A stretch of DNA of 49,156 bases, taken from Holophagae bacterium. GTDB taxonomy: Bacteria; Acidobacteriota; Thermoanaerobaculia; Thermoanaerobaculales; Thermoanaerobaculaceae. The notes under the pieces were generated by a model, which saw only the letters and a program-made list of their open reading frames with translations, did not search any database and was not told where the DNA came from. Made by a program: the position numbers and the translations under genes. This document shows, one piece after another, positions 27,853-47,800 of the stretch (its first letter is position 1; each line of letters opens with the position of its first letter). The DNA is taken from NCBI GenBank assembly GCA_012516935.1, contig JAAYVZ010000240.1, positions 1 through 49,156 of the forward strand, given 5' to 3'.

Positions 27853-30129
27853 ATGGGTAGCGTCGCCCGAGGTGGCAAGAAAAGCGGGAAGGGTGCCGGC
27901 GCGGCCGGTCTCTCGCCGGTGTTCTCGGTCTTTGAACAGCTGGAGATCGGCCAACCGCTGGATGTCAGCGGCGAGCTCGAGTATCGCGGGGTTGCCGCCG
28001 AGGGTTGCTACGGGAGCATTCTCAAGGTTCTGCACCGTCCCAGCAATGCGCTGCGTGCGGTCAAAGCGATGCACCCGAGCCTGCTGGCGAACGACGTCTC
28101 GCAGCGGCTGTTCGAGGAAGAGTTCGAGAAGCTGGCCGGTGTGGCCGGTGAGTTCGCAGTCAAGGTCTTCGACTTGGGACCGATCGCCGTCGTCGGGCAG
28201 GACCAGCCGTGGTGGGTGATGAGCCTGGAGTGGGTCGAGGGACGCACCTTGCGGGATGTGGTCTCGGGCTCACGGTTTTCGCAGCAGTTCTCGTTCGAAC
28301 GCTACGTGGACCGGCTCGCGGCCGAGGAGGACGCAAGCGGCTCAGGGCTGACCTCGGACGAGGCGCTGCACTTTCTCGAGCAGGCCGCTCACGGTGTGGC
28401 CGAGCTGCACCGGGCAGGTCTTTGCCACCTCGACGTGAGGCTCGACCACCTGTTGCTGGCGAAGAGCGGTTCGGTACGCCTGATCGGGTTCGGTCTCGGT
28501 GCCGAGCTGCGTCGAGCTGCCCAAGAGGCGCTCGGTGTGCGCTGGCAAACCTCGCCGTACGCACCTCCGGAGCTGCTGCGTGGTGATTGGGCGGCCCTCG
28601 GACCGCAGTCCGATGTCTACCAGCTCGCGCTGCTCGCCTACGAGCTGTTCAAAGGCACGGTGTGCTCGCCCTGGGTGGGGTACGAGGAGCTGTGCGAGAG
28701 CGCCGATTTCCTGCCCGTCTCGATGGACGAGCTCGTCCAGGACTGCCTTGGCGATATCGACCAGCGGCCTGCTGATGCAGACGCCTTCTTGGTCCGCCTG
28801 CGCGACGTTGCGGCCGTGCTCGACGAGAATCAGCGCCGAAGTCGCACCCGCCCCAACCGCAAAGCCAAGGAGATCTGGCAGCGGGCCCTGGCGATGGCCG
28901 GGCGCGAGCGTCCGCAGTGGGGTTACATCGCCGGCATGTGCCAGCGCCTGCTCGAGGAGAAGCCCCATTTGCTGCCTTTCGGAAAGATTCCGGTGAAGCG
29001 GGTCGACGAGCTTCTGGGCTCGGCACAGACCGAGCTGGCCGCACGGCGCCGGGCGATGCTCGACGAGCTGCTCACGGCTCAGGCGTGGGGCGAGGCGGCG
29101 GCTTTCGTCGAGCGGCTGGGCGGCGAGGTGGCGACCGACGAGGTGGACGAGCTCAAGCTCAACCTGGAGCTGGCGCAGGTGGCAGCACACCAAGAGGATC
29201 CGGCGGCCCGGAGCCTGGCGCACCAGCGGATCATGGAGCTGCTCAAACAACCGCGTCTTTCATCGGCGGTGCGCGACCGCGCGGCGCAGGCGCTCGAGTC
29301 GCTGCTGGCTCAGGGACGAACGATCGAGGACTCGCCGGGCGCGACCCTGCCCCCGCCGGTACCGGCGTCCGTCACCGTGGCGCCGCCGCTCGAGCCGATG
29401 CCTGGGCCGCCCGTCGCGGCGGCGCCGCAGACGGAGGCTGCGGCGCCTCCGATCGCGGTCGTCACGGACCTCGGGCTGTTGGCTCCGGTCGAACGTTTCC
29501 AGGTCGAGTCGGCGCGCGAGCTGACGACGTGGCGGGTGGTGGTGGGGCCGGCGGTACGTTTCGGCCGGGGCTCGTTCGAGGAGTTCGGCAACCACCTCGA
29601 CCTCAGGCCGACTCGCAGGGAGGCAGCCGAGAACTCGATCACGTTGGCCCTGGCGCAGCGGTTGAGCCGCGCCGGGCACATGGAGTTTCGGGTCGCTCCG
29701 TCCGGGCTCGAGGCCTTCTGCATGGGCACCCACGGCGCGGCGATGGACGGCAAGGTCCTCAAGCGGGGCGAGAGGTGCGAGCTGGGAGACGAGGGCCGAT
29801 GCCTGCTCGCGCAGGGGGCGGCGGAGTTCGTGTACAAGGTATGGCGAGGCCGCGAAGGCTCGCCGCAGGCGGTCGAGTTCGCTTTCACGGCCGGGGTCGG
29901 TGCAGGGCGCCACGCGGTTTGGGTGTTCTCGTCGCTGCCCATTCACCTCCTGGTCCCGTCGACGGCCGCTAAGGTCCTGGTAGTGCCCACCCGCCAGGGG
30001 TGGATGGTGGAGGCACGCAGCGAGGCGGTGAAGCTCGACGAGGTCGAGCTGGTCAGGGGCACGCGTCACCCGTGGGCGGCGGAGGCGGTTTTGGAGCTGC
30101 CCGAGGGGACGCGAATCGTCCATGGATAA
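27853..30129 (+). CDS. Predicted protein pseudokinase with C-terminal FHA-like domain
   Basis: This 758-residue cytoplasmic protein has a Hanks-type kinase fold at about residues 40-320. The beta-3 lysine is kept (K71 in RAVKAM). The glycine-rich loop is degenerate (EGCYGS), the catalytic HRDxKxxN is HLDVRLDH (D194 kept, Lys to Arg, Asn to His) and DFG is GFG (G212). Loss of both Mg-binding residues predicts little or no phosphotransfer. A helical middle region (about 325-500) and a Pro/Ala linker (about 500-545) lead to a beta-rich domain at 557-670 resembling FHA, with RFGRGS, NSITL and THGAAMDGKVLKRG. The downstream lipoprotein gene overlaps by eight bases. Confidence 0.8.
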   Translation: MGSVARGGKKSGKGAGAAGLSPVFSVFEQLEIGQPLDVSGELEYRGVAAEGCYGSILKVLHRPSNALRAVKAMHPSLLANDVSQRLFEEEFEKLAGVAGEFAVKVFDLGPIAVVGQDQPWWVMSLEWVEGRTLRDVVSGSRFSQQFSFERYVDRLAAEEDASGSGLTSDEALHFLEQAAHGVAELHRAGLCHLDVRLDHLLLAKSGSVRLIGFGLGAELRRAAQEALGVRWQTSPYAPPELLRGDWAALGPQSDVYQLALLAYELFKGTVCSPWVGYEELCESADFLPVSMDELVQDCLGDIDQRPADADAFLVRLRDVAAVLDENQRRSRTRPNRKAKEIWQRALAMAGRERPQWGYIAGMCQRLLEEKPHLLPFGKIPVKRVDELLGSAQTELAARRRAMLDELLTAQAWGEAAAFVERLGGEVATDEVDELKLNLELAQVAAHQEDPAARSLAHQRIMELLKQPRLSSAVRDRAAQALESLLAQGRTIEDSPGATLPPPVPASVTVAPPLEPMPGPPVAAAPQTEAAAPPIAVVTDLGLLAPVERFQVESARELTTWRVVVGPAVRFGRGSFEEFGNHLDLRPTRREAAENSITLALAQRLSRAGHMEFRVAPSGLEAFCMGTHGAAMDGKVLKRGERCELGDEGRCLLAQGAAEFVYKVWRGREGSPQAVEFAFTAGVGAGRHAVWVFSSLPIHLLVPSTAAKVLVVPTRQGWMVEARSEAVKLDEVELVRGTRHPWAAEAVLELPEGTRIVHG

Positions 30130-31054
30130 TCGGCCCCGTCCGGCCCGCCAGACAGTCGCTACCGCTGTGCTGCTCGCTCAGCTCACGGCCATGCTCTCGG
30201 GTTGTCTGTCGGTCAAGACCAGGACCATTCGGGCGGCTGAGGGGGAGGGTGGTGGTGTGGCGCTCCAGGTGTTCGCCGACGACGGCGCGCGAAAAGCGGG
30301 TCGCGTCGGCCCCGGGGGGCTGGTCAGCGAGCTCGAACGCAAGGAGGGCAGGACCTGGAGGCCGGTTTTCCGCTCCCTCAACCCGAGCTGGGCAGTGGTC
30401 GGTTTGCCGGAGGGTACCTACCGCGTCGGCTTCCCAGCTCGCCTGAGCGAGGCCGGAGACGTCGAGCGGTTGGGCAGCTCGAAGCACAAGGTCTTCGAAG
30501 TACGTGACCGCATGATGACGGACGTCCAGGTCACGCTCGCGCATGTCTCTCCGGCGCTCGTCGTGGTCGGGATCGTGACCGTCGTTGTGGCCGCCGTGCT
30601 CATCTCCGACTATCTCGGCGACCACGACCTGCCGACGCCACCCGTACCGCCAGCGGAGCTCGTCGAGCTGGCGTTCCACGTCTCGCTCGACCTCGCTGCG
30701 CAGGCGGCCTGGTCTGCAGGCGGGGATCGGATGGCGCCGGTCGTGACCTCCCACTTCCCGGCGTCCGGGGCGCTGGTGGCCGCGCGACAGCCGAAGGTGA
30801 TCTTCTGCTTCTCGGAGCCGCTTGCCGGGCGCACGCTCGAACCCGAAAGCGTCGTGGTCCTCGGCGAGAGGTCGGGAGTGATCGCCGGCACCGTGCACTA
30901 CGACGGTGCGAACTGGTGGGTCGTGTGGACACCACGCGAGGATCTGCCGGGTGGCGACCGTTTCCACGCCACCCTGAGCGGCGACGCGATCGAGGATCTG
31001 GCCGGTAACGAGCCCGGCAAGCCCACGTCGTTCTCCTTCAGGACCGCCCCCTGA
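30122..31054 (+). CDS. Lipoprotein with transmembrane segment and Ig-like (SbsA/Big_5) domain
   Basis: ATG 30122 lies inside the last eight bases of the pseudokinase gene. A lipoprotein signal ends in the lipobox LSGC (Cys28). A beta-rich region follows to about residue 135, then a hydrophobic stretch at about 141-160. The C-terminal 110 residues form a bacterial Ig-like domain of the SbsA type: APVVTSHFPASGALVAARQP, then FSEPLAGRTLEPESV and the closing GNEPGKPTSFSFRTA. Such domains sit on surface or periplasmic proteins. An acylation site followed by a membrane helix is unusual. The coupling to a pseudokinase suggests an envelope partner of that protein. Confidence 0.75.
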   Translation: MDNRPRPARQTVATAVLLAQLTAMLSGCLSVKTRTIRAAEGEGGGVALQVFADDGARKAGRVGPGGLVSELERKEGRTWRPVFRSLNPSWAVVGLPEGTYRVGFPARLSEAGDVERLGSSKHKVFEVRDRMMTDVQVTLAHVSPALVVVGIVTVVVAAVLISDYLGDHDLPTPPVPPAELVELAFHVSLDLAAQAAWSAGGDRMAPVVTSHFPASGALVAARQPKVIFCFSEPLAGRTLEPESVVVLGERSGVIAGTVHYDGANWWVVWTPREDLPGGDRFHATLSGDAIEDLAGNEPGKPTSFSFRTAP

Positions 31055-31132
31055 GCGCGAGTCGAAGGCTCGGGCCCGGTGCCCCTGCCAGCCCGCCACG
31101 TCGCCTCACCACCGACCGAAGATCTTGCCTTT

Positions 31133-31148
31133 TGCCAGCCTTCTGGCA
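31133..31148 (+). promoter_or_regulatory. Inverted repeat upstream of the YitT gene
   Basis: TGCCAG and CTGGCA form a perfect 6-bp inverted repeat around CCTT, ending 12 bases before ATG 31161. It could be a small hairpin limiting translation, an operator, or the end of the preceding transcript. Confidence 0.3.
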
Positions 31149-31160
31149 GGATGCCGGCCC

Positions 31161-32045
31161 ATGAGATGGGATTTTCGGGCGCCGGGTGGTCGGCTCGGGA
31201 TCGTGTTCGACTACGGCCAAATCGTGCTGGGATCGGTGCTCGTCGCGATCGGCACCAACATGTTCTTCGTGCCGAACAACGTCGTCTCGGGCGGTGCGGT
31301 GGGTGTCTCGATCATCCTCCATCACCTCTTGCACACGCCTGTCGGTCTCGTGACCCTGGCGCTCAACGTGCCGCTCATTTGGCTCGGGTGGAAGTACGCA
31401 GGCGGGATGCGCTTTTTCATCCGCACGGTGGTGGCAGTGCTGGTGATGTCGCTGGCGATCGATGCGTCGGCGCCGTTCATCACCCCGCCGACCACTGACC
31501 GGCTCCTCGTGATCTGCTATGGGGGCCTCCTCGATGGGCTGGGAATGGGCCTGGTGTTCAGAGGGCGCGGCACGACCGGTGGTACCGACGTGCTGGCCCG
31601 TCTCGCACACCGTTTCCTGGGAATCGGGGTCGGCCAGGCTCTGTTGGCGATCAACGTCGGTATCTTCGCCGTCGCGGCGTTCATCTTCGGCGCCGAGGCG
31701 GTGATGGTGGCGCTGGCTCTGGCGTTCGTGTCGGCCCGAGTGCTCGACCTCGTGCAGGAAGGCTTCTCGGCAGCTCGCACGGCGATCATCATCAGCGAGC
31801 AGCCTGAGGCGGTGAAGCAGGCGGTCTTGTTCCGGCTGGGACGAGGGGTCACGGTGCTGCGCGGGGAAGGAGGGTATACCGGCCAGCCGCATCCCGTGCT
31901 CTACGTTGTGCTGGCCCCGCAGGAGGTGGGCCGCCTCAAGCGGCTGGTGGCACAGGTTGACAGGAAAGCGTTTGTCGCGATCACACCGGCCCAGGAGGTT
32001 CTGGGTGAGGGATTCGCGGCTCACAGTGGCGAGGAGGCGATGTGA
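31161..32045 (+). CDS. YitT family membrane protein
   Basis: ATG 31161 gives 294 residues; a TTG-started frame 36 bases upstream is less likely. Five or six membrane helices occupy about residues 17-205, with the family-type opening IVLGSVLVAIGTNMFFVPN and then VSGGAVGVSIIL. Later the segment GRGTTGGTDVLARL is also typical. The C-terminal cytoplasmic domain is of the DUF2179 type (VTVLRGEGGYTGQPHPVLYV). YitT proteins are widespread and of unsettled function; transporter roles have been suggested. Its stop overlaps the next gene by four bases. Confidence 0.88.
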   Translation: MRWDFRAPGGRLGIVFDYGQIVLGSVLVAIGTNMFFVPNNVVSGGAVGVSIILHHLLHTPVGLVTLALNVPLIWLGWKYAGGMRFFIRTVVAVLVMSLAIDASAPFITPPTTDRLLVICYGGLLDGLGMGLVFRGRGTTGGTDVLARLAHRFLGIGVGQALLAINVGIFAVAAFIFGAEAVMVALALAFVSARVLDLVQEGFSAARTAIIISEQPEAVKQAVLFRLGRGVTVLRGEGGYTGQPHPVLYVVLAPQEVGRLKRLVAQVDRKAFVAITPAQEVLGEGFAAHSGEEAM

Positions 32046-32842
32046 CGAGAACCTGGCAATGTTGGCTCCTGGCGGTAGCAGTCACGCTGGGCTCGGTAAT
32101 CTGGCAGCGGCTGACCGGTCCAACCCACCCGGCCCGGATCCGGGTCGAGATCGCGGGGCAGTCCATCGCGCTCAGGTTGCTGCGTTCAGGTACCACAGGG
32201 GAGAACCTGCCGGTTCGCGTCACCGCCGCGGGGGGCACGACCGGGGCGGTCGCGTGGCGCCGCTATCCGACCAGCGACGAGTGGAAGGTCATACCGATGA
32301 CGCGGACTGGGGCGGAGCTGGTGGCCGAGCTCCCACACCAGCCAGCAGCTGGAAAGATCGAGTACCAGGTCCGCCTTGACGACGGAACGCGGGCCGTCAC
32401 CGTCCCGGAGCGTGCTGCCATCGCCCGCTTCAAGGACGCGGTGCCGGTCTGGGTTCTGATTCCCCACGTGCTGGCGATGTTTTCCGGGATGCTTCTCGCG
32501 ACCCGCGCCGGTATCGAGGCGGCGGCCGGGCGGCCGCGCATTCGCTCTTTGTCGTGGGCGGCGTTCGGGCTCATCCTCATCGGTGGGTTCGTGCTCGGTC
32601 CGGCGGTGCAGAAGTATGCCTTCGGCGCGTGGTGGACCGGTGTGCCGTTCGGTTGGGACCTCACCGACAACAAGACGCTCGCCGCCGGCGTCGCCTGGGC
32701 TGTGGCATTGACGAGCTTCCGCAGCCGACGGTCCGGGCGGACGGCGGTGCTTCTGGCTGGGCTCGTGACCCTCGTGGTGTTCGCCATCCCTCACTCGGTA
32801 ATGGGCTCGCAGCTCGACTGGTCGAAAGTGTCTGCACAGTGA
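32042..32842 (+). CDS. Uncharacterised membrane protein with extracytoplasmic beta-rich domain
   Basis: This 266-residue protein starts at GTG 32042, overlapping the YitT stop by four bases (GTGA). A first helix at residues 5-22 is followed by a soluble region of about 100 residues that looks like an Ig-like sandwich (RIRVEIAGQSIALRLLRSG, AAGKIEYQVRLDD). Four further helices are at about 135-155, 172-190, 215-232 and 240-258. A conserved-looking segment GVPFGWDLTDNKTL lies between the third and fourth helices. I do not know the family. It is convergent with the beta-helix kinase gene, 34 bases away. Confidence 0.7.
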   Translation: MTRTWQCWLLAVAVTLGSVIWQRLTGPTHPARIRVEIAGQSIALRLLRSGTTGENLPVRVTAAGGTTGAVAWRRYPTSDEWKVIPMTRTGAELVAELPHQPAAGKIEYQVRLDDGTRAVTVPERAAIARFKDAVPVWVLIPHVLAMFSGMLLATRAGIEAAAGRPRIRSLSWAAFGLILIGGFVLGPAVQKYAFGAWWTGVPFGWDLTDNKTLAAGVAWAVALTSFRSRRSGRTAVLLAGLVTLVVFAIPHSVMGSQLDWSKVSAQ

Positions 32843-32876
32843 TCGCCAAACCGCGAGCAGGACTCGGAGGTTATGG

Positions 32877-34940
32877 CTACTGCTTGCGGATCGTGGAGCT
32901 GCGATCGGCGAGCTGTTGCCCTCTCACGTTACCGGTAAGGGTGCTCTGCTCGATGATGACGGTCGCGCCTTCTCGCGCCCAGACCCCTCGGCCGCCGTTG
33001 CTCCGGATGGTGCAGCCAACCAGCTTCGCCTGAGCGCCCACCACATCGACACCGTGGCCGTCGTTGTCGGCGATCTCCGTGCTCTCCACCGCCGCCTCTG
33101 CCTGCTCGCGCACCAGCAGCCCAACCCCATGGCCGCCCCGCACCGTACCGAGACGCATGTGCAGCTTGCCACCGCCGCCGATGTCGATTCCGGTCTGACC
33201 GCACCGCTCGATGCGCCAGCCGTCGAGGATCGCGAGCCCCCTGGTCAGTACCTGGACACCGGCTGCAGGGCAGGCGGAGACGGCGCCAGCCCGCAGGGTC
33301 GCTGCGGCATCCTGACGCACCACCACACCGTTCCGGGCACCGGTCACCTCGCACCCCTCCAGCAGCGCTCGCGCCTGGCCCTCGACCACCATGGCGTCGC
33401 CCATATCGACCGATTCCACCCGGCAACGCCGCAGGGTGGCGAGCGACGTGCCCTCCAGCCGAGCCGCTGCCTCGCCCGAGCCGGTAATCGTGCAGTCCTC
33501 CAGCAGCGGCTCCCCCCCCCGCCCCCGCACCGCGGCGGCTGGTGCGTTGCCGGCCTCGCCCAGGGTACGGAGCGTGAGCCCGCGCAAGGTCGCCCGGTGG
33601 CTTTTGAGCGTCACGGCCGGAGCCGAACGGCCGTCGATCACGACTTCTGCACGCGCCCCCTCGGCGACGAGCTCGACGTCGCGCTCAATCCGCACCGATT
33701 CCCGGTAGACTCCCGGAAAAACCGTGATCGTCCCGCCCGTCCGAACCCGAGCGAGGGCAGCGCCGAGGCTGCGCTCGTCGGCACCCTCCAAGCCGACGGT
33801 GAGCCTGGAAGCGGGCAGCGCCCACAGCACCAAGAGCCCCAGGGCGACGAGCAGAGGAGCCGCGAGGAGGGCGAGCACGAAGACGGACGAGGCGCTCGAA
33901 CGGCGGCTGGGGCGAGTGGCCGGGGCCGGCTGCACTGCCTCGGCGACGTACGGCAGGACGGGTTCGGTCGGCACCGGCGGACGCGGTTCGGGTGAAGACG
34001 GTGTCGACTCCTGAGGGGCTGGCCCAGCCGCGTTCGGCGTCATCGCGGCCCTTACCGCAGGTAGCACCACCGTCGTCGCGGTGCCGATCGGTTCGAGCGC
34101 CGCCGAAGTGAGGGCCGAGGCGAACGCGCCACAGGTCTGGTAGCGGTCCTCCGGCTGCTTGGCGAGCGCACGCAGGATCACCAGCTCGAGCGAGTGTGGC
34201 AGCGCCGGGTTGAACGCCCTCGGTGACGGGGCTGGGGTGCGCAAATGCGCTTCCTTGACGACGAAGTCCGCATCGACGCCCTCCGTCGTGACGTCGAATG
34301 GAGGCCGACCGGCCAGCATCTCGAACAGAACGCATCCGAAGCTGTAGATATCGGTCCGGTGGTCGAGCTGGCGGGGACGCAGGATCTGCTCGGGGCTCAT
34401 GTAGTGAGGTGTGCCGATGGAAGCGCCGGTCTGAGTCAGCCGTTGTTGGCCGATCATGAGGGCGATCCCGAAATCGGTGAGATACCCATGCCCTTGTGTG
34501 TCGACCAGGATGTTGGACGGCTTGACGTCGCGGTGGATGACGCCCTTGCCGTGCGCGTACTCGAGCGCGCCGAGGATGTCGACCGCAATGGCGAAAGCAT
34601 CGGAGACGGGCAGCGGGTGCACCCGCTCCAGCCGGCGCTCGAGCGACTCCCCGCTGATCAACGGCATAACCAAGAAAAACCCCTCGGGAACGGAGAAGAA
34701 GTCGTTGACCGAGACGATACGAGGGTGGACCAGGGCCGCTTGCGCCTTGGCTTCGAGCCGAAACCGGCTGGCAAACTGTGGGTCGAAAGCAAGGTGCGGT
34801 GCGATGGATTTGATGGCGACCGGGCGGGCGAGCAGCTCGTGACGTCCCTTCCACACCTCGCCCATGCCGCCGACTCCGATGCGCTCCTCGAGCAGGTAGT
34901 GCCCGACGCGCTGGCCGGTGCGCAGCACCGAGAAGGGCAT
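32877..34940 (-). CDS. Receptor-type Ser/Thr protein kinase with extracytoplasmic right-handed beta-helix
   Basis: ATG 34940 overlaps the phosphatase stop by one base and gives 687 residues. The kinase domain (about 10-275) is intact: GVGGMG loop, K44 in VAIK, HRDVKPSN with D138, DFG at 156-158 and a TxxYMSPE activation segment end. After a Pro-rich linker, one membrane helix lies at about 352-375. The extracytoplasmic part (about 385-680) begins like a pectate-lyase/NosD beta-helix (VRTGGTITVFPGVYRESV). It then repeats short strands with CTI or EGC turns, as in LLEDCTITGSGEAA and LVGCTIRSNGGRGV. It probably senses a carbohydrate or surface polymer, which is inference from the fold. Confidence 0.88.
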   Translation of the reverse strand: MPFSVLRTGQRVGHYLLEERIGVGGMGEVWKGRHELLARPVAIKSIAPHLAFDPQFASRFRLEAKAQAALVHPRIVSVNDFFSVPEGFFLVMPLISGESLERRLERVHPLPVSDAFAIAVDILGALEYAHGKGVIHRDVKPSNILVDTQGHGYLTDFGIALMIGQQRLTQTGASIGTPHYMSPEQILRPRQLDHRTDIYSFGCVLFEMLAGRPPFDVTTEGVDADFVVKEAHLRTPAPSPRAFNPALPHSLELVILRALAKQPEDRYQTCGAFASALTSAALEPIGTATTVVLPAVRAAMTPNAAGPAPQESTPSSPEPRPPVPTEPVLPYVAEAVQPAPATRPSRRSSASSVFVLALLAAPLLVALGLLVLWALPASRLTVGLEGADERSLGAALARVRTGGTITVFPGVYRESVRIERDVELVAEGARAEVVIDGRSAPAVTLKSHRATLRGLTLRTLGEAGNAPAAAVRGRGGEPLLEDCTITGSGEAAARLEGTSLATLRRCRVESVDMGDAMVVEGQARALLEGCEVTGARNGVVVRQDAAATLRAGAVSACPAAGVQVLTRGLAILDGWRIERCGQTGIDIGGGGKLHMRLGTVRGGHGVGLLVREQAEAAVESTEIADNDGHGVDVVGAQAKLVGCTIRSNGGRGVWAREGATVIIEQSTLTGNVRGQQLADRSSTIRKQ

Positions 34941-36430
34941 CAGCGCCCCCCAGCTCGGTCCATGGGGACGCCGAGGCCCGACTGCCGGCGCTCGATCGAT
35001 AGCGGTATCTTGAAGCGGCCGAGCCGCCATTGGGCGTCGATTTCGGCCTCGATCCTGGTGCTCACGCTTCCCCTGCCGAGGATCGTCAAGGCGACGCCGG
35101 CGAGTCGGTTCGGATCGAGATCCGCCTGAAGCTCCACCTTGGCGCTCCCATGGGCTGGAAGCTCCAGCGGTGTGGCCGGGCTCCATATCCCGCGAGCGAT
35201 CTCGTGCCCTTCCACCTCGACCCGGTAGCGAAGCCCGTGGAGGCGGAGCCGAATCGGCGTGCGATTGGAAAGGCGCAGGCTGGCATGGGCCTGCAAGAGC
35301 CCCGACTGCTCGGGACCGCGATGCACCCACAGGTCGCCGAGCTCGACCCGGGTGAGGTGGGACGCCCAGCGATGGGCCCCGAGCCAGAGCGCGAGCGCCA
35401 GAAGCACGAGGACTGCCAAGGTGCCGCCGAGGCCCCAGCAGCATCGACGGAGCACCGTATCGAGCCGGTGGCCGTGGGCCGGCCGAGCCCCAGCATCCAC
35501 CGGCTCGGCCTCGGCAAGGGCGCTCACGGCCTGCGGTGTGGAGGCCGATACCGCCTCTGCAGCCGGGGGTGATGCCGAGCTTGTCGCGGAAGGCAGGGGC
35601 AGAAGAGCCGGCCGCGAGCTACGGGTCGGCCGGCGAAAGGGTTTCCCTTGCCGGGGCAGGACCCGGTGTGAGTGCCAGCCGGGACGCTCGGTGAAGACGA
35701 TGAGCTGGACCGTGATGTTGTCGTGTCCTCCGGCCGCCAGAGCGGCTTCGATGAGCGCTTCGGCCGCGAGCTGCGGGTCGTCGTGACGGGAAAGCACGGC
35801 CGCGATCTCGTCGCCCGCGAGGTAGCCCGAGAGGCCGTCGGAGCAGAGCAAGACGGCATCGCCTCGGCGCGCTGCGAGGCCGGGCGAAAGCGCGATCGGC
35901 AGCTCCGATTGGCGTCCGAAGGCGTGGGCGAGGACGCTGGCTTCTGGGTGGTGACGGGCCTCCTCCTCGGTGAGGAGGTTCTGGTCCACGAGCTGTTGCA
36001 CCCAGGTGTGGTCGCGGGTTAGCTGGACCAGCCTGCCCTGTCTCCAAAGGTAGGCGCGGCTGTCGCCCAGGTGGCCGACGAAGACCTCCCGGCCCCGGAC
36101 GACGAGAAGGACCGCCGTTGACCCCATGTGGTCGGTGGTTGGGTCACCGGAGGTAGCGGCAGCACACACGGCGAGGTTGACGTCACCGGCGGCGGAGCGC
36201 AGCGCCGCGCGCAGTGAGCGCGGCTGGGGGCGGGCGACCAAGGCCTGCTGCAGCCCATCGAGCACCATCGAAGCCGCCTGTGATCCGCCCTTGTGCCCAC
36301 CCATCCCGTCCGCAACCACGAAGAACTCGGCGTTGGGCGTTCGGAAACGCCCCATTCTGTCCTGGTTCTCACGTCTCACCAGACCGATATGACTGAGAGC
36401 ACCAACTGCGAAGCGGGGCGGGCGCGTCAT
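34940..36430 (-). CDS. PP2C-type Ser/Thr phosphatase fused to a membrane helix and LEA2/WHy-like domain
   Basis: The 496-residue protein begins with a PP2C catalytic domain (about 1-248). It has ENQD at 21-24, DGMGGH with D41, GDSRAY near 122, SDGLSGYL near 198 and GGHDNITV near 235, so all metal-binding acids are present. A Ser/Pro/Ala linker leads to one membrane helix at 332-351. The C-terminal 360-482 resembles a LEA type 2 / water-stress (WHy) domain: LGDLWVHR, LRLSNRTPIRLRLHGLRYRV and AKVELQADLD, ending with IPLSIE. PP2C plus an extracytoplasmic LEA2-like part is an uncommon fusion. It would reverse phosphorylation by the coupled kinase. Confidence 0.85.
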   Translation of the reverse strand: MTRPPRFAVGALSHIGLVRRENQDRMGRFRTPNAEFFVVADGMGGHKGGSQAASMVLDGLQQALVARPQPRSLRAALRSAAGDVNLAVCAAATSGDPTTDHMGSTAVLLVVRGREVFVGHLGDSRAYLWRQGRLVQLTRDHTWVQQLVDQNLLTEEEARHHPEASVLAHAFGRQSELPIALSPGLAARRGDAVLLCSDGLSGYLAGDEIAAVLSRHDDPQLAAEALIEAALAAGGHDNITVQLIVFTERPGWHSHRVLPRQGKPFRRPTRSSRPALLPLPSATSSASPPAAEAVSASTPQAVSALAEAEPVDAGARPAHGHRLDTVLRRCCWGLGGTLAVLVLLALALWLGAHRWASHLTRVELGDLWVHRGPEQSGLLQAHASLRLSNRTPIRLRLHGLRYRVEVEGHEIARGIWSPATPLELPAHGSAKVELQADLDPNRLAGVALTILGRGSVSTRIEAEIDAQWRLGRFKIPLSIERRQSGLGVPMDRAGGR

Positions 36431-36499
36431 GCTGGAACGCCCTTCGTCGAAGCGGCCCCATGCAGCCGGCTGGGTGCGGCGTGGCCCATCCTGTCGACA

Positions 36500-36527
36500 T
36501 TGTAGCCGAGCGACCGGCGGCTATACT
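36500..36527 (+). promoter_or_regulatory. Candidate promoter for the TPR kinase
   Basis: TTGTAG (36500-36505) and TATACT (36522-36527) are 16 bases apart within the 179-base gap between the divergent phosphatase and kinase genes. The -10 is good and the -35 matches only the first three bases. The transcript would have a leader of about 75 bases. Confidence 0.45.
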
Positions 36528-36609
36528 GCCAGCGATCGATGCGCGCACCCTCGCTTCTCGCACCCGAACCAACACCTCGACGGCGGCAGGGTCTCGGTGG
36601 AGGTCGCCG

Positions 36610-39600
36610 TTGAGCCAGGGGTGGCGGGCACGCCGACTGCTGCGGCGCGCGATCGAGCGTCGATGGCTCGACCCCACGCAGCTCATCGCTCTCGACGGTC
36701 CGCAACGCTCCGACGAAGCAGCTCGTGACGCCGGCTTCGAGGAGTGGTTGAAGCACCTGCTGGACCGTGAGGCGCCCGTGGCTTCGCCTCTCGAGGCCGA
36801 GACGGCCCCAACTCTCGATCCGCTGCCCTCCGCAGTGATGGCCGTCGCCGACTTCGGCACGGCACCGACGGAAGGCGATGCGTTGCCGCTTCCCGGGTGG
36901 GAGCGCTACGAGCTCCTGAGCCTGATCGGGCGCGGCGGCATGGGCCGTGTGTTCCGCGCTCGCGACCCCCGCCTGGGGCGCTTCGTCGCCATCAAGCTGC
37001 TGCGCCACGACGAGCCCGAGCTGGTGGCTCGTTTCCTGCGCGAGGCGCAGGCGCAAGCGCGGGTCGAGCACCCGGCGATCTGCCGCGTCTACGAGGTCGG
37101 CGACGCTTCCGGCCAGCCGTACATCGCCATGCAGCTCATCGACGGTGCCTCACTGCGCGAGCGGGCAGCGGAGCTGTCACTCGAGCAGAAGCTCCTGGTG
37201 GTTCGCGAGGTGGCGCTTGCCCTCCACGAGGCGCACCGCAACGGCCTCGTCCACCGCGACATCAAGCCGGGGAACATCCTCCTGGAGCGCGGCGAGGACG
37301 GGGAGTGGCGCCCGTACGTGGTGGACTTCGGTCTCGCCCGCGAGGTCGAGCAGCCCGGCACCACGCTCCCGGGCGCGCTCATGGGGACCGCGGCGTACAT
37401 GTCCCCGGAGCAGGCGTGTGGAGACCTGCAAGCTCTCGACCGCCGCACCGACGTCTACTCGCTGGGCGCGACGTTGTACGAGCTGCTGCGCGGCGCCCCA
37501 CCGTTCGTGGGCCGCACCGACGTCGAGGTGTTGATGAAGGTCGTCAGCGAGGAGCCGGAGCCGCTCCGGCGCCGGCTCCCGCACCTGCCGCGCGACGTCG
37601 AGACCATCGTTCAAACCTGCATGGCAAAAGAGCCTTCGCGGCGCTACCCATCAGCTCGCGCCGTGGCTGACGACCTGCAGCGCTTCCTCGACGGAGAGCC
37701 GATCGCGGCCAGGCCGGCGAGCGTGACCTACCGGCTGGGGCGCAAGCTCATCAAGCATCGGGCCGTGGCGGGCGTGGTGGTGGCGGCCTTGGTGGTTGCC
37801 CTCACCGCCGCCGCGATGGCGGCGAGGACGGCGTGGGTGGCGGCGCGGCAGGAACGCCTCGCTCAGGAGTTCGCGGGCGATGTCGGCTACGTCGAGGCGC
37901 TGCTCCGCCACGCTCACACCTCGCCGCCGCACGACGTGCGGCCCGAGCGGGCCCAAGCGCGCCTGCGGTTGCAACACATCGAGGCACGCATGGCGGCCGA
38001 GGGGAGCGTGGCGCGTGCGCCCGGCAACCTGGCGCTAGGCCAGGTGTGGCTGGCGCTCCAGGAGCCGGAAAAGGCGAGGTCCAGCCTCCAGGCTGCATGG
38101 GACGACGGGTACCGCGGGCCGCAGGTCGCCCTGGCGTTGGGGCAAGCGCTCGGGCAGCTTTACCAGCAGGCCGTCGAGCAAGCGCAGCGGGCGGAGGATC
38201 TCGGCCAGCGCGAGCGCCTGAAGGAGGAGGCGACGGCGCGCCTGCGCGGGCCTACGCTCGAGCTGTTGCGGGCGGGTGAGGGCTCGTCGGCTGAAAGCTC
38301 ACGACTGGCCAAGGCACTCATCGAGCTGTACGGCGATCATTTCGGTGAGGCCCTGGCGCTGGCGCGCGAGACAGCACGGGAGTACCCGTGGCTGTATCAA
38401 GCGCACAAGCTCGAGGGCGACGTGCTGGTCGCCGAGGGGCGGGAGGCGGCTGCGCAGGGGAGGTATGACCAGGCGGGTGCTTCTTACGGCGAGGCCGAGC
38501 GTGCCTTCGCCCGGGCGCAGGAGATCGGCCGCAGCGACGCCGAGATCGTTCTCGCCGACAGCCAGCGGCTGCTCGAGGTGGCCGACGCGGTGGGACGTCA
38601 GGGGCGGTCGCCCGTGGCTGCTCTCGCCACCGCCGTGCACCAGGGCCGCCTGGCGGCACTCATCAACCCCGACAGTGGCTCGGCGCTGGCCAGGCTTGCC
38701 GAGGCTCACGCGAGGCTCGCGGACTGGCAGCGCGACCACGGTGAGGACCCGCGGCCCTCGCTCGGACAGGCGATCTCGCTGGCCGAGCAGGCGCTCGAGC
38801 TGCGCAACGGCGACGGTCCTGCCGCCGCCACGCTGGGCCGGGCGCTGACCATGCTGGGCGACCACGACGCGAAGGAGGGCGGCGACCCCAGGCCCGTCCT
38901 GGACCGCGCGGTCGCCAGCTACCAGGTGGCACTCAAGGCGCTGCCGACCGACGCGGAGATCAGCACCGATCTCGGCTACGCCCACGACAAGCGCGCCCGG
39001 TGGGAGTCCTCCCACGGGATCGACCCCAGGCCCTCGATCGCGGCCGCCATCGTGGCCTACGAGCGCGCTATCAGAATCGACGAGCGCTATGCCAACGCCA
39101 GAAACACGCTCGGCATCGCCTGGTGGCGGCAGGCGGAGTACGAGCGCCGAATCGGCCTCGACCCCACGGCCTCGCTCGCCAGCGCCGAGCAGTCGTATCG
39201 CGAGGCGCTGGAGGTCAACCCCAACTATGCCAACGCCTGGGCCAATCTCGGCTCGACCCTGCGCTCGCAAGCGGTGGCGCTCGTGGACGCGGGCCGCGAC
39301 CCGACCGGCCGGCTGGAGGAGGCCCGGGCGGCGTTCCGCAGTGCCTTCTCGACCAATCAGGACATCTTCTGGGCCTGGAGCGAGCTGGTGGAGACGGAGC
39401 TGGTGGCCGCGCGCTGGGCGCTCGCCGAGGGTTCGACGCCCGAGCCTTTCTTGGCGGCGGCACGGCCGGCCCTCGAGCGGGCGCTGGCGCTCAACCCGCG
39501 CAGCGCGGAGTGCCACCACACCGCCGCCCGTCTCAGCCTGCTCGAGGCGGAGTGGACCAGGCAGCAGGGGGGCAACCCGGCCCGGGCGGTCGCGGCGGGG

Positions 39601-39819
39601 CTGCGCGAGGTGCGGCAGGCCCTCGACATCAACGCGCGGCGGCCCGACACGTTGGCGGTGCGGGGCGCACTGCGCCTCGTACAGGCGCGGGCCGATGCCG
39701 CCACGCTTCACCTCGCCGCCGCCGACCTGCGTGCGGCGATGGCGGGCAATCCCTTGCTGCGTCGGGATTACGGTCAGTACCTCGAGACTGCCGAGGCACT
39801 GCTGGCTCGGAGGCGCTGA
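36610..39819 (+). CDS. Ser/Thr protein kinase with membrane helix and 46-residue TPR-like tandem repeats
   Basis: TTG 36610 is preferred because GGAGGT lies five bases upstream; an ATG at 36460 would run through the promoter. The 1069-residue protein has an intact kinase domain at about 98-362 (GRGGMG, K129 in VAIK, HRDIKPGN with D217, DFG 239-241, YMSPEQ). A membrane helix lies at about 386-407. Residues 420-620 are helical. Residues 621-1034 are nine tandem units of exactly 46 residues with a DPRPSL-type start. The repeats would be extracytoplasmic if the single helix is used. This is a receptor-like kinase with a large protein-binding solenoid, divergent from the phosphatase-kinase operon. 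Confidence 0.88.
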   Translation: MSQGWRARRLLRRAIERRWLDPTQLIALDGPQRSDEAARDAGFEEWLKHLLDREAPVASPLEAETAPTLDPLPSAVMAVADFGTAPTEGDALPLPGWERYELLSLIGRGGMGRVFRARDPRLGRFVAIKLLRHDEPELVARFLREAQAQARVEHPAICRVYEVGDASGQPYIAMQLIDGASLRERAAELSLEQKLLVVREVALALHEAHRNGLVHRDIKPGNILLERGEDGEWRPYVVDFGLAREVEQPGTTLPGALMGTAAYMSPEQACGDLQALDRRTDVYSLGATLYELLRGAPPFVGRTDVEVLMKVVSEEPEPLRRRLPHLPRDVETIVQTCMAKEPSRRYPSARAVADDLQRFLDGEPIAARPASVTYRLGRKLIKHRAVAGVVVAALVVALTAAAMAARTAWVAARQERLAQEFAGDVGYVEALLRHAHTSPPHDVRPERAQARLRLQHIEARMAAEGSVARAPGNLALGQVWLALQEPEKARSSLQAAWDDGYRGPQVALALGQALGQLYQQAVEQAQRAEDLGQRERLKEEATARLRGPTLELLRAGEGSSAESSRLAKALIELYGDHFGEALALARETAREYPWLYQAHKLEGDVLVAEGREAAAQGRYDQAGASYGEAERAFARAQEIGRSDAEIVLADSQRLLEVADAVGRQGRSPVAALATAVHQGRLAALINPDSGSALARLAEAHARLADWQRDHGEDPRPSLGQAISLAEQALELRNGDGPAAATLGRALTMLGDHDAKEGGDPRPVLDRAVASYQVALKALPTDAEISTDLGYAHDKRARWESSHGIDPRPSIAAAIVAYERAIRIDERYANARNTLGIAWWRQAEYERRIGLDPTASLASAEQSYREALEVNPNYANAWANLGSTLRSQAVALVDAGRDPTGRLEEARAAFRSAFSTNQDIFWAWSELVETELVAARWALAEGSTPEPFLAAARPALERALALNPRSAECHHTAARLSLLEAEWTRQQGGNPARAVAAGLREVRQALDINARRPDTLAVRGALRLVQARADAATLHLAAADLRAAMAGNPLLRRDYGQYLETAEALLARRR
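38470..39711 (+). repeat. Nine tandem 46-residue protein repeats (138-base period)
   Basis: Within the TPR kinase, residues 621-1034 align in steps of exactly 46 residues with no insertion or deletion. The unit starts D-P-R-P-S-L (degenerating to DPTASL, TPEPFL and NPARAV), has Ala at position 9, Tyr/Phe near 13, Ala at 16, Asn-Pro at 20-21 and Leu-Gly at 30-31, and ends with Trp near 40 and a Gly pair. The first unit is the most diverged. The pattern is a 34-residue TPR helix pair plus a fixed 12-residue connector. Confidence 0.85.
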
Positions 39820-41894: not shown

Positions 41895-44800
41895 CTAGTC
41901 CGCGGCCTTCACCTCCATCACGTGGCCGGTGGAGTAGGCGGAAAACTCCGGGGCGTACATCGACTGCACGGTGGCGGGACCGATGCGGAAGGTGCCGGCC
42001 ATGTTGGCCCGGAGGCGGTAGCGGAAGGTGTACTCGCCGACCGGCAGGCTCTCGAAGAAGAAGTTGGACCCGGAGTCGCGGATCTCCTCGTACCAGCCGA
42101 TGCCCAGGTCCCACTTGTACCCCGAGCGCGGGTTCTCCGGCTCGAGCCCGGCGGCGCGTGGGTCGCGCAGGTGCACGTACTCCGCCTCGTGCTTGGACCG
42201 CAGCGAGATCTGCACCTCGATCTGGTCGCCGACGGCGATCGGTACGCCCTCGGCGAGCGGCCTGAGCACCCACTCGCGCCCGACCATCTCGCGCTTGAAG
42301 TAGCGCCGTCTGACCTGGAAGAAGTCGCCGCGCTCGGCGTCGGGGAGCCGCTCGGTCGAGAACTGCCAGGTGGCCGAGGCGAAGGCGAACCCCTTCGAGG
42401 TCTTCTCGACCGCGATCTCGGCGGTCGAGGGGCCGACCTTGGGTCCGGGGATGACGACCTGGTTCTTCTTGCCCTCGTACCGCTCGGGGTCGAAGGCGAA
42501 GGTGGTGGTTTGGGGCCCCACCGTCACCGTCATGTCCTCCTTGATGCCCAGGGTCTTTTCGGCCTTCATGTAGTGGACAAGGGCGTAGATGACCTCGGCC
42601 GTGGCGCGGGTGGACTTCCACTGGTTGAGCTTCTTGTTCAGCAGCAGCCACTGTACGAGACCGTCGCGTCGGCGATCTTGGGGTGCCAGCTCCATCAGCG
42701 TGCGGAGCGCGAAGGCGTGGCTCTCGATGGTGTCGTTGTACCAGAGCCAGGAGCGGTCCTCGGGCGCCCAGAACGTGCCCTCGTCGAGCGTCGTCCGCGC
42801 CGAGTCCATGACCGAGTCCCACACCAGCCGCGCGTCGTTCGGGCGGTCCATGCGGGCGAGCGTGAGGGCGAGGTAGCCCTTGAGGTACGGCGAGTGCCGC
42901 TTCCAGTGCCGGAACGAGAAGTCGAGGATCCCCTTCCGCTCGTCGAGCGTGAGCGCGTCACCGGTCCACGAGGCGTCCGGGTAGGCGGTGGCGACGTAGT
43001 TGAGGAAGGTGAGGACCTCCCAGCAGCAGTCGTGCTTCATCATGTCCCGCCAGGTCTCGCGGTAGTACTTGGCGAGGTACTGCCAGCCCTGCTGGACCAT
43101 GTCCTTGGGCACCTCGACGCCGAACTCGGTGGCCTTGGCGAAGCCGTGCATCAGGTAGAGCGTCATGTACGGCGAGGGCGGGCCGCCTTCCCACCACGGG
43201 AAAGCGCCGCTCGCGGTCTGGGCCTTGGCGAGTTTGGCGAGCGCCTGGTCGCGGTTGGCCCTGGCGAGGCGCGGATCGAGCACGTTGACGAAGCCCTCGT
43301 CGGCGTCCTCGCCGCCGCGCGCCGGCACGAGCCACGGCGTCTCCTCGATTGCCATCCGGCGGTTGGGGTCAGCCTGATCGAACGTCTCGAGCACCGTGTC
43401 GCGCGTGGCCATCTGCTCGGCCATGCGGGCGACGGCGGGGTAGTCCTCGTAGACCGAGGCGACGATGCCGGTGGAAAGGAACCGGTTGAGCGTCTGCTCG
43501 GTGCACTCGTACGGGTAGTTGACGAGGTAGGGGAGCGCCGCCAGCACCTGGTAGAAGAGCTGCGCGTCCACGGTCACGACCAGTTGCTCGTTGAGCAGCG
43601 TTGGGTCGCCGCCTTGCGCCAGATCGTCGAAGCGCATGACCCGGCGGTCGGCGTTGCGCAGCGTCACGAAGCGCGACTGCGCGAGGTGCAGGCGGGAGGG
43701 CAGCACCGGCAGCGGACGCAGCTCGCCGTCCGAGAGGTCGCCCGCGGTGGCCACGACCTTGAACGCGACCTGGCCGACACGCTTGGGGGCGGTGAGGTCG
43801 AACGAGAGGTTGGCGCCGCCGCCGGCCTTGACGGCGAACGGCCGGACCGCGTCGGACGGCCCAAGGCCGAACTCGGCGAGCAGGCTCCGGTTGGTCTCTG
43901 GGTCGAGGATGTCGAAGGCGAGCCGGCCCGAGAGGTCGGTCTCGCCGGCGTTGTTGACCACGACCTTGATGACCGCGCGGTCGCCCTCGCGCAGGAAGCG
44001 CGGCACGTACGGCCGCACCATGAGGTCCTTCACCGAGCGCGCCTCTTTGTGGAGCGAGCCCGAGCGGAGGTCGCGCGTCACCGCGTGCACCCAGACGTTC
44101 CACGAGGTCACCGAGTCGGGCACCGTGAACTCGATCGCCGCTGTGCCGTCCCTGTCGGTCAGCAGGTGCGGCTGCCAGAACGCGGTCTCGGCGAAGTCGG
44201 AGCGCAGCTCGGCGGGGGGCGCCTCTGGCGTCTGCTGTGCACCGTCGGGCGGCGCCTCTTTGGCGAGCGAGACCTCCTCGTCCACCCCGTCTAGAATGCC
44301 TCCCATCACCCCGCCTTTAACGCCTCCCTCCACTGGCGGGGCTGGAGCAGACGCCTGAAGCGCCATCGGCGCTGCCACCTCAGGTATCTCGCCGGTGGCG
44401 CCGAACGCCACCGAACGCATCTGGCGGCCTGGGCCGCCGAGGCCATATCCGGGGTAGAACCGCAGACGGTCGCCTTGTAGCCGCGGTGCGCGGGGTAGGG
44501 CCGGGAACGACGAGCGGTCGAACGACAGCGCGTATACCGGTGCGAGGTTGGGTCGCACGGACACTAGCCACGTGCGGAGCGGGTAGAGCGAGAGCGGGTT
44601 CGGCGGGGTGTGCGGCGCGAAGAGGTCGAGGCTGCGGTCGAACATGTACGCGAGCAGCTCGGCCGCGCCGGCCTCCGCGGGCCGGCCATCCGAGCTCTTG
44701 ACCTGGATCCGCCAGGTCTCCGGCCCCTTCGGTCGCATCCGGTCGCGAAACGTCGCGAAGCTCACGTCGAGCGTCCGGTCATCCCATGGCACGTTGATCG

Positions 44801-47800
44801 GCTCTCGTGCCGTCAGCACCTGGTAGTCGCGCACCGCTACGACGAGCACCGAGAACCCGCCGCGGTCCTCTTCGCGGATCGGCAGCTCGACGAGCGCGCC
44901 GTCGCGCCCGGCGACGAGCTGCCGGCGGTCGAGCAGCTCGCCGTCCCGGAAGCGGTAGAAATACATTGTCTGCCCGGCGATGCCGCTGTGGACGAGCAGG
45001 CGCGCCGTCTGGCCCACGCGCACGGAGCTGGCCGCGGCGCGCACCACCAGCGGTAGCGCGAGCGCCGGTCTGGCACCGCCCACTATCAGCTCACGGCTCG
45101 TCTCGTAGACCGCCCCGAACTCGTCTTTCGTGGTGTAGACGATCCTGAACGCCCCGGCTGGAAGCGCAGGCAGCGCTACCGTCGCCCGGCCGCCCAGATC
45201 GTGCGTGCACGGCGCGCCGGCGAGACGCTTGCCGGCCTTCCAGCTCCGCAGCGTACGCTCCGGCCGGTAGGCGGGTTCCCAGCGTGGCTTCAGGCGATCC
45301 CCCTCGGTCGCGTACCTCGCCTCCGCCTCCTCGAGCGGCAGCTCCTCGTCGGCTGGCATGGCAGCCTGGGCGGGCTGGACGAGCTCGACGAGCTCCCACG
45401 TGCCCTCGCCGGGGCGCGCCACGCCGTCGAGGGTCTGCCTAGTCACCGTCACCTGCGATGGCGTGTTGACCTGCGTGAACCCGCCGCCGAGGTCGATGCT
45501 GGCCTCCACCGCCACGAACCCCAGCCGGAACGCCCGCGAGGCGCTGCGCGTTTCGCCCCCCTCGTCGGTGACGTCGGCCTCGAGCCGGAAGCGGTACGTC
45601 GTTTCCGCGCTCGTCTGGGCGAGCCGCTCGTCCGCCTTGGGCACGAAGGCAACCGTGAACGTCCCATCCTCCGCGAGCGTGGCCTCACCCGACGCGACCT
45701 TCTGTGCCGCGGTGTTGACCGGCCGTCCCCACCACCACCCCCACCACCAGGGGTACACCGGCTCGCGGGTGACGCGCCACCGCACTTTGCCGGCGGTCAC
45801 CGGCAGCCCGAAGTAGTAGCGCGCCTCGCCGACGAACGATGCCTCGCGGTTGAGGCGCAGGGCGCCCTCGGGGTCCTTCACCGAAACCTCGAACGTCGGT
45901 CGCTTGTACTCCTCGACTCGCAGTGAGGCGACGCCAGCGAGCGAGGTGCGGAGCTGCCACGAGCCGAGCGGCCGGCCCGACGGCACCACCATCTCGCCGG
46001 AAGCCGAGCCGAACGCGTTGGTGACGAGTTCGAGCGAGGCCACGGTCTCGCCGTTGGGGTCGTCGAGCATGACGCGGACCGGGGTGGCCGCGGTGACCCG
46101 GAAGCGTCCCTTCTCGCGGCTGCCTTCGTACACCAACACCTTGAAGAGCACTTTCTGCATCGGCCGGTAGACGCTGCGGTCGGTATACACGAACGAGCTC
46201 CGGTTCTCCCACGGCTGCGGACGCTCGCTGAACCCGAAGTAGTGCTCGTCGAGCAGCGCCTCCCCGGGGCGCTCGGCTACCAGGAAGTAGCTCGAGTCGC
46301 GCTGGCCCGCGGTGCTGTCGAACGACGCGATCCCGGTGGCGTCGGTGACCAGGGTTTTCACCCGCTTGTGGCCCTCCCGCCAGTTGCGCTCGTAAAGATG
46401 CAGCGACACCCCCGCCAGCGGCTCGCCGGTAGTACCCGCCACGACGCGGACCTCCTGGCCTCCGGTGTCGTCGTCGCGGCGCAGCAGCACCATGTCGGTG
46501 ACGGCGAACGGCACCGCCAGCATGCGGTTGTCGCCGCTGCCGAAGTCGGCGCGCGCGGAGGAGGCGACGATGTAGAAGCCTTTGTGAGTCAACTGCGGCG
46601 TCACGAACGTGCGATGCGAACGCAGATCGGGGGTCGGGGGTAGCTCCACCGACCAGGCAGCAGCCGGCGACTGGTTTTGCACGAGCTCGCGGATCTCCTC
46701 GGTGTCCGGCCGCAGGTTCCAGTCGCGCGACCGCTCGGCGAACCGCACCGCGTCCACGCGGTAGGCGCGGAAGTGGAGCTTCGGCAGGTTCCTGTGCTCG
46801 ACCTGCAGGGAGCGCCGGCCGGGTCCGTCGGCGTTGAGCCCCGAGAGCGTGTATTTCGGCGCCTCGAGGCGGGCGGCGATGGCCGTGCAGTGCTGGGCGC
46901 CAAGCGAGCCGGGGTAGGCCTTTTCACCCTGCCGTGCCAGGTCACGCGCGCGGATCAGGCTGTCGGGCGCGCTCTCGTTCTCGTGCAGCTTGGCGAGCGA
47001 CGCCATCCCCTCCGCCCACCAGCCGACCTGGCGAAAGTCGGGAAGGCGCTTTTCGAGGTCCTCGCGGATCGCGATTCGATCCTCGTCCGCGGTGAACGCG
47101 CCGCTCAACCGCCGCGTGCGCTCCAGCCGCGCCTCGAGCTGCGCCTCACGACGCTTCGCCGCGCCGGTCCACGCCTCCTGGTCGTCGAGCACCGCGCACA
47201 CGCGCAGCAGCGGGTGGACCGCCGGGTCGTCGAGCGCGAGCTGCGACGACTCGGCGACGTTGCCTTGCAGCAGCCGCGCGAGCCCCAGGTCGAACGTCTC
47301 GTTCTCGTGCTCGGGCCGCCAGTACGAGGTGTCGGCGAGCAGCTCGACGAACAGGTACGTTACCGCGTCGCGCAGCGTGCCGCGCACCTCGGGCGGGTAG
47401 GTGTTCTGCGCGAGGTACTCGGAGAGGCGCCCGATCGGCACGTCGGAGAGCTTCGCGCGGCGCTTCCAGATGTCGACGTAGGCGCGCACCGCGGCGGTGT
47501 AGATCTCCTCCATCGTCCACGCCTTGAGGTCGACCTCTCCCTTGGACTCCACCTTCTCGCGCTCGCGGATCTCCCATCCGTAGCGCCCGGCGTAGGTCAT
47601 GAGGGCGTGCGCGTAGTAGAGGTCGAGCGTGGTGCGCGCCCACTCGTCCTGCGGCCACGGCTGGTCCTTGAGGTGGCGCACTGCGGTCTCGTACCCGTGG
47701 AGCGCGATGCGGAGCTGGGTCTCCTTGACGAGCGCGCGCGTCCACTCCTCGGCGTTGCCCGCCACTGAAGCCGCCTTGCGGATCGCAGCCGCGCCCTCGG

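Follow-up and report, generated by a model that had tools for sequence, protein, structure and literature searches.

A predicted FHA-tailed pseudokinase and its kinase and phosphatase neighbours in a Thermoanaerobaculaceae genome

Genes of the locus

We analysed a 49,156-nt contig stretch, hereafter the window, of a Thermoanaerobaculaceae-type Acidobacteriota genome (GCA_012516935.1, JAAYVZ010000240.1; referred to as G000). A preliminary description of this DNA had outlined a group of signalling genes between positions 27853 and 39819. All the genes it named were found at their places, and its domain readings (a pseudokinase with an FHA-like tail, a beta-helix receptor kinase, a PP2C-LEA2 phosphatase and a repeat-solenoid kinase) held (Table 1). 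The two membrane-protein genes in between, described there as small, proved to be of ordinary size.

Table 1. Positions of the features in the window
Feature	Position	Strand	Remarks
PK, predicted soluble pseudokinase	27853..30129	+	758 aa; Pfam Pkinase, E 2.5e-17
PK FHA-like C-terminal tail, model residues 540–758	29470..30126	+	AF2 fold match
LIPO, predicted lipoprotein with C-terminal Big_5 Ig-like domain	30122..31054	+	Pfam Big_5, 5.5e-11
YitT-family membrane protein	31161..32045 (ORF from 31125)	+	~294 aa; Pfam YitT_membrane 1e-59 and DUF2179 2.2e-19
266-aa membrane protein, unnamed family	32042..32842	+	overlaps the YitT gene by 4 nt
BHK, beta-helix transmembrane Ser/Thr kinase	32877..34940	-	Pfam Pkinase 2.2e-46, Beta_helix 2.7e-21
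PP2C-LEA2 phosphatase	34940..36430	-	Pfam PP2C_2 4e-16, LEA_2 3.9e-9
TPRK, transmembrane Ser/Thr kinase with TPR-type solenoid	36610..39819	+	Pfam Pkinase 2.1e-41, TPR_17 7.2e-15

The YitT gene is unlinked from LIPO in genomes G006 and G010, and lies 30 kb away from it in G005. The 266-aa membrane protein matched no Pfam or NCBIfam family, and its orthologs (45–69% identity) were found in G001–G004, G007 and G009. This protein has conserved His-containing segments and is paired with YitT in the genera g1, g2 and g3. Pfam and locus comparison also identified a MocA-type oxidoreductase, SSB and DNA polymerase IV among the other neighbours.

The pseudokinase PK and its FHA-like tail

PK consists of a kinase fold (residues ~27–330), a helical region (330–490), a Pro-rich linker and an FHA-like/beta tail (540–758), with no transmembrane segment detected by hydropathy. 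The best PDB matches of its AF2 model (mean pLDDT 75.8) were PknB and PknA. In the window protein, HRD is replaced by HLD (HLDVRLDH), DFG by GFG and the catalytic Asn by H. Among seven aligned PK members, none has the catalytic Asn and five (G000, G001, G004, G007 and G009) lack the DFG Asp, which is kept in G003 (DYG) and G005 (DVG). The beta3 Lys is changed to Arg in G004, G005, G007 and G009; G000 and G001 retain both this Lys and the HxD Asp. A Ser/Thr pseudokinase has been defined by the loss of at least one of the beta3 Lys, HRD Asp and DFG Asp (PMC12599244). By this definition, six of the seven aligned members, including the window PK, are pseudokinases, while the G003 member keeps all three residues (Lys, HGD and DYG) and, judged by these motifs, could still be an active kinase.

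The tail is the best conserved part of PK, with 83% identity to the protein of G001, and the invariant residues of the aligned members cluster in it. Its AF2 model (pLDDT 88.9, pTM 0.86) was nearest to PDB folds that are mostly FHA domains, with a best E of 1.6e-3 and none at or below 1e-3; SMAD MH2 domains were among the remaining matches. Pfam FHA (PF00498) gave no match in any of the seven members at E values up to 10, and the PDB sequence search with PK returned no FHA match, so a sequence-based assignment as FHA was rejected; ten ordinary FHA domains were found elsewhere in the window genome. The FHA tail of the preliminary description thus stands as a predicted FHA beta-sandwich, recovered by fold alone, and falls as a sequence-level assignment. 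Since no PDB match reached E 1e-3, we assign the tail to FHA at the level of the modelled fold only. Compared with the phosphothreonine-binding pattern GR...SxxH...N, the tail carries an invariant GRG and an invariant SRAGH, and differs from the canonical binding site in an S–H spacing that is one longer and in Asp-Gly where Asn-Gly is usual.

The kinase region shares 77% identity with that of G001 (dN 0.15, dS 0.99, dN/dS ~0.16, from plain pairwise counting at nearly saturated synonymous sites), a clear indication of purifying selection on the sequence. Two readings of PK depart from a cytosolic scaffold or reader. In one, which we consider distinctly unlikely, PK functions wholly through the FHA-like/beta tail and the helical middle, with the kinase fold left as a relic in decay. 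The clustering of invariant residues in the tail and an active site that decays differently in each genus are consistent with such a relic, but a kinase region conserved like the rest of the protein between G000 and G001 argues that the fold is still selected. In the other, PK would be a still-active atypical kinase, binding or transferring phosphate without a canonical DFG. The Lys and HxD Asp that G001 and the window protein still have, together with the G003 motifs, speak for residual activity; set against them are the general loss of the catalytic Asn, the loss of the DFG Asp in five members, the change of Lys to Arg in four, and a tail better conserved than the active site, and we regard this reading as very unlikely.

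Distribution and coupling of the neighbouring genes

A peptide-pattern scan of 84,980 species genomes detected PK relatives in five records, all of them Acidobacteriota or unnamed MAGs; the ones named to family or genus belong to Thermoanaerobaculaceae or Thermoanaerobaculum. In a search of 100 relatives, full-length PK matches were confined to four genera of one family (g1, g3, g4 and g5). The tail had no match in 296 other genomes sampled across Acidobacteriota, a sample that evidently does not contain the known PK carriers besides G000; G006, a member of the same family in the listed part of this sample, is without PK. By sequence search, the PK family is detected only in Thermoanaerobaculaceae.

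The LIPO gene shares its first 8 nt with the end of PK and follows it directly in six of the seven PK genomes; in G005 it lies on another contig. Its lipobox is LSGC, and Cys28 is invariant in 16 relatives. In addition to this conserved lipobox, LIPO has a later, strongly hydrophobic segment (143–161, hydropathy), which would place the Big_5 Ig-like domain in the cytoplasm, an odd prediction. LIPO occurs without PK in seven further genomes of the family and, beyond it, in others of the same class, and we regard it as much older than PK and usually without a pseudokinase beside it. LIPO as an obligate kinase partner was rejected, given that at most LIPO loci none of this set's kinases has an ortholog next to the gene. 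In G069 and G081, another kinase gene, an intact one, was observed close to LIPO. In two f5 genomes (loci L045:2-1525 and L054:2652-4229), a LIPO relative has near it, in divergent orientation, a gene whose product is an intact Ser/Thr kinase ending in a TonB-like stretch.

In G003, PK and LIPO lie downstream of a trp operon; in the genus g6, LIPO and an alpha/beta-hydrolase gene occupy this place without PK. An earlier candidate for the upstream genes, a lipid A operon, fitted in gene sizes and was rejected because Pfam identified tryptophan biosynthesis genes; this context therefore provides no link to the envelope. With their overlapping genes and their adjacency in six of seven PK genomes, PK and LIPO look like a coupled sub-pair, and this coupling could be positional, via a shared locus.

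The PP2C-LEA2 and BHK genes also look coupled. The one-base overlap reported for them was confirmed, the TGA of PP2C-LEA2 and the ATG of BHK having one base in common, and this is a standard bacterial arrangement. PP2C-LEA2 is composed of a PP2C domain, a Pro-rich linker, a transmembrane segment (334–352, hydropathy) and a C-terminal LEA_2 domain. Its motifs DGMGG, GDSR, SDG and GGHDN are intact, and it matched the Stp1-type NCBIfam model at 6.3e-61 with 205.8 bits, below the cut-off of 230. BHK likewise has intact motifs (AIK, HRDVKPSN and DFG), a transmembrane segment at ~353–371 (hydropathy) and a predicted extracytoplasmic domain in the form of a right-handed beta-helix. Identity to G001 was 36% for the LEA2 tail and 46% for the beta-helix, compared with 74–78% for the catalytic domains (78% for the BHK kinase). 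The outer domains thus appear to diverge approximately 2–3 times faster than the catalytic ones, as expected of sensors tracking different ligands. Full-length relatives of BHK and PP2C-LEA2 were detected in the same genus only (G001); elsewhere, only the kinase or PP2C domain matched, and LEA_2 domains were mostly found in short open frames. In the G001 ortholog (L013:10603-12473, G001:C53), the LEA2 part is read in another frame than the PP2C part on the far side of the Pro-rich linker, either from misassembly or because the frame is truly broken. A promoter scan of the divergent gap between PP2C-LEA2 and TPRK found nothing.

The start of TPRK is probably TTG 36610, which has GGAGG six bases ahead of it, rather than ATG 36460 of the longest ORF, because homology to G001 begins at this TTG. 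Its 46-residue repeat was reproduced, with autocorrelation peaks at 46, 92 and 138, and is read by Pfam as TPR. The active-site motifs VAIK, HRDIKPGN and DFG are intact, and the label of divergent kinase given to TPRK was dropped. Orthologs of the solenoid were identified in the family f2 with 36–41% identity over ~500 aa, and in the 12 loci examined (5.5–19 kb) no ortholog of PK, LIPO, PP2C-LEA2 or BHK was detected near TPRK. On these sequence comparisons, the TPRK family has the breadth of an order and elsewhere occurs on its own.

One circuit or separate signalling units

The preliminary description had proposed that these genes form one circuit. Comparison of gene order did not sustain this proposal: linkage of the set is not kept across genera, related genomes of other genera having only isolated members, an outcome that this description had itself listed as counting against the proposal. 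The order is kept in G001, of the same genus, where the collinear region corresponds to 24.4–48.6 kb of the window (~24 kb) and includes inositol monophosphatase, SSB, DNA polymerase IV and alpha-2-macroglobulin genes. Because this collinearity spans unrelated or housekeeping genes, the signalling genes are not singled out. The occurrence of three kinases within 9 kb had P ~0.05 under random placement (28 kinase hits in a 3.7 Mb genome).

Taken together, we consider it likely that the locus comprises two or three signalling units that are independent of one another and are neighbours in a single genus, their adjacency being lineage-specific. A genus-specific envelope circuit, in which BHK and TPRK would phosphorylate PK as a scaffold, or targets associated with LIPO, for the PK tail to read and PP2C-LEA2 to erase, seems unlikely. 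Such a circuit would agree with the way in which three kinase folds, an FHA-like tail and a PP2C are placed next to one another, here and in the only other genome of the genus, with the purifying selection on the PK kinase region, and with the similar writer–eraser–reader logic of the mycobacterial PknA/PknB/PstP/FhaA locus and the MviN–FhaA complex (PMC11898655, PMC12599244). However, its members lie apart in every other genus, the collinearity with G001 extends across unrelated genes, and g3, g4 and g5 keep PK but have neither BHK nor PP2C-LEA2 nor a TPRK nearby. A young circuit specific to the genus is possible, the comparison within the genus being one of two genomes, of which one is 81% complete. 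Adjacency by itself is no indication of a shared pathway, and cross-talk within the genus is possible. Drawing a circuit from adjacency is risky in kinase-rich genomes; this genus keeps the order only because everything is kept.

With separate units as the preferred reading, PK would be a cytosolic scaffold or reader, its degenerate kinase fold fused to the FHA-like tail, and would probably bind a phosphothreonine partner or let partners dock on the dead kinase fold. LIPO, presumably co-translated with PK, may be its envelope-side partner. PP2C-LEA2 and BHK would form a co-transcribed membrane eraser–writer pair, in which a ligand on the beta-helix leads BHK to phosphorylate cytosolic targets and PP2C reverses this, the LEA2 and beta-helix domains, both evolving fast, being predicted to face outside the inner membrane. 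TPRK would be a divergently transcribed receptor kinase with its TPR solenoid facing the periplasm.

The order in which a PP2C gene immediately precedes the gene of a transmembrane Ser/Thr kinase is reported to be common in bacteria (PMC12088040). The PrpC–PrkC and Stp1–PknB pairs share with PP2C-LEA2 and BHK this order, the overlapping genes and the intact catalytic motifs. In contrast to these pairs, the BHK sensor is a beta-helix and not PASTA, and PP2C-LEA2 is itself predicted to be membrane-anchored with an outer LEA_2 domain. Membrane Ser/Thr kinases of Planctomycetota and Myxobacteria have a kinase, a single transmembrane segment and a C-terminal TPR array predicted to be periplasmic (PMC11032199); TPRK has the same layout and is a 46-residue repeat variant, otherwise ordinary.

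The mycobacterial pstP-pknA-pknB-fhaA-fhaB locus, together with the MviN–FhaA complex, likewise includes a writer, an eraser, an FHA reader and a pseudokinase (PMC11898655, PMC12599244), whereas the present locus has no RodA or PbpA neighbours and is not conserved beyond one genus. The pairing of pseudokinase and FHA is otherwise known from two separate proteins, MviN and FhaA; in PK, the pseudokinase and the FHA-like domain are in one predicted soluble protein. The bacterial pseudokinase families ActPs1-3, GLW, CP1, DYD and DLHK, and EssB/YukC, resemble PK in a kinase fold with degraded motifs, and CP1 and DLHK are likewise soluble; as far as the available excerpts of their descriptions go, the FHA-like tail, the Acidobacteriota distribution and the HLD/GFG motifs with the lost Asn match none of them. 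The new part of the locus is this small, previously undescribed FHA-tailed pseudokinase family. The fuller proposal, that PK founds a soluble family of decayed kinase fold and divergent FHA-like reader, with one molecule serving as both docking platform and phospho-reader, paired with a lipoprotein and written and erased in this genus by the adjacent BHK or TPRK and PP2C-LEA2, we hold to be highly improbable. Should members of the PK family bind phosphoproteins, they would offer a compact test case for the cooperation of a dead kinase fold with an FHA reader.

Elsewhere in the window, a large bacterial alpha-2-macroglobulin gene (41895-48023, 2042 aa) was observed beside SSB and DNA polymerase IV. 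Further upstream, at 17078-18739, lies a gene for a dCache-HAMP-HD domain sensor protein (HD_5, HD-GYP-like).
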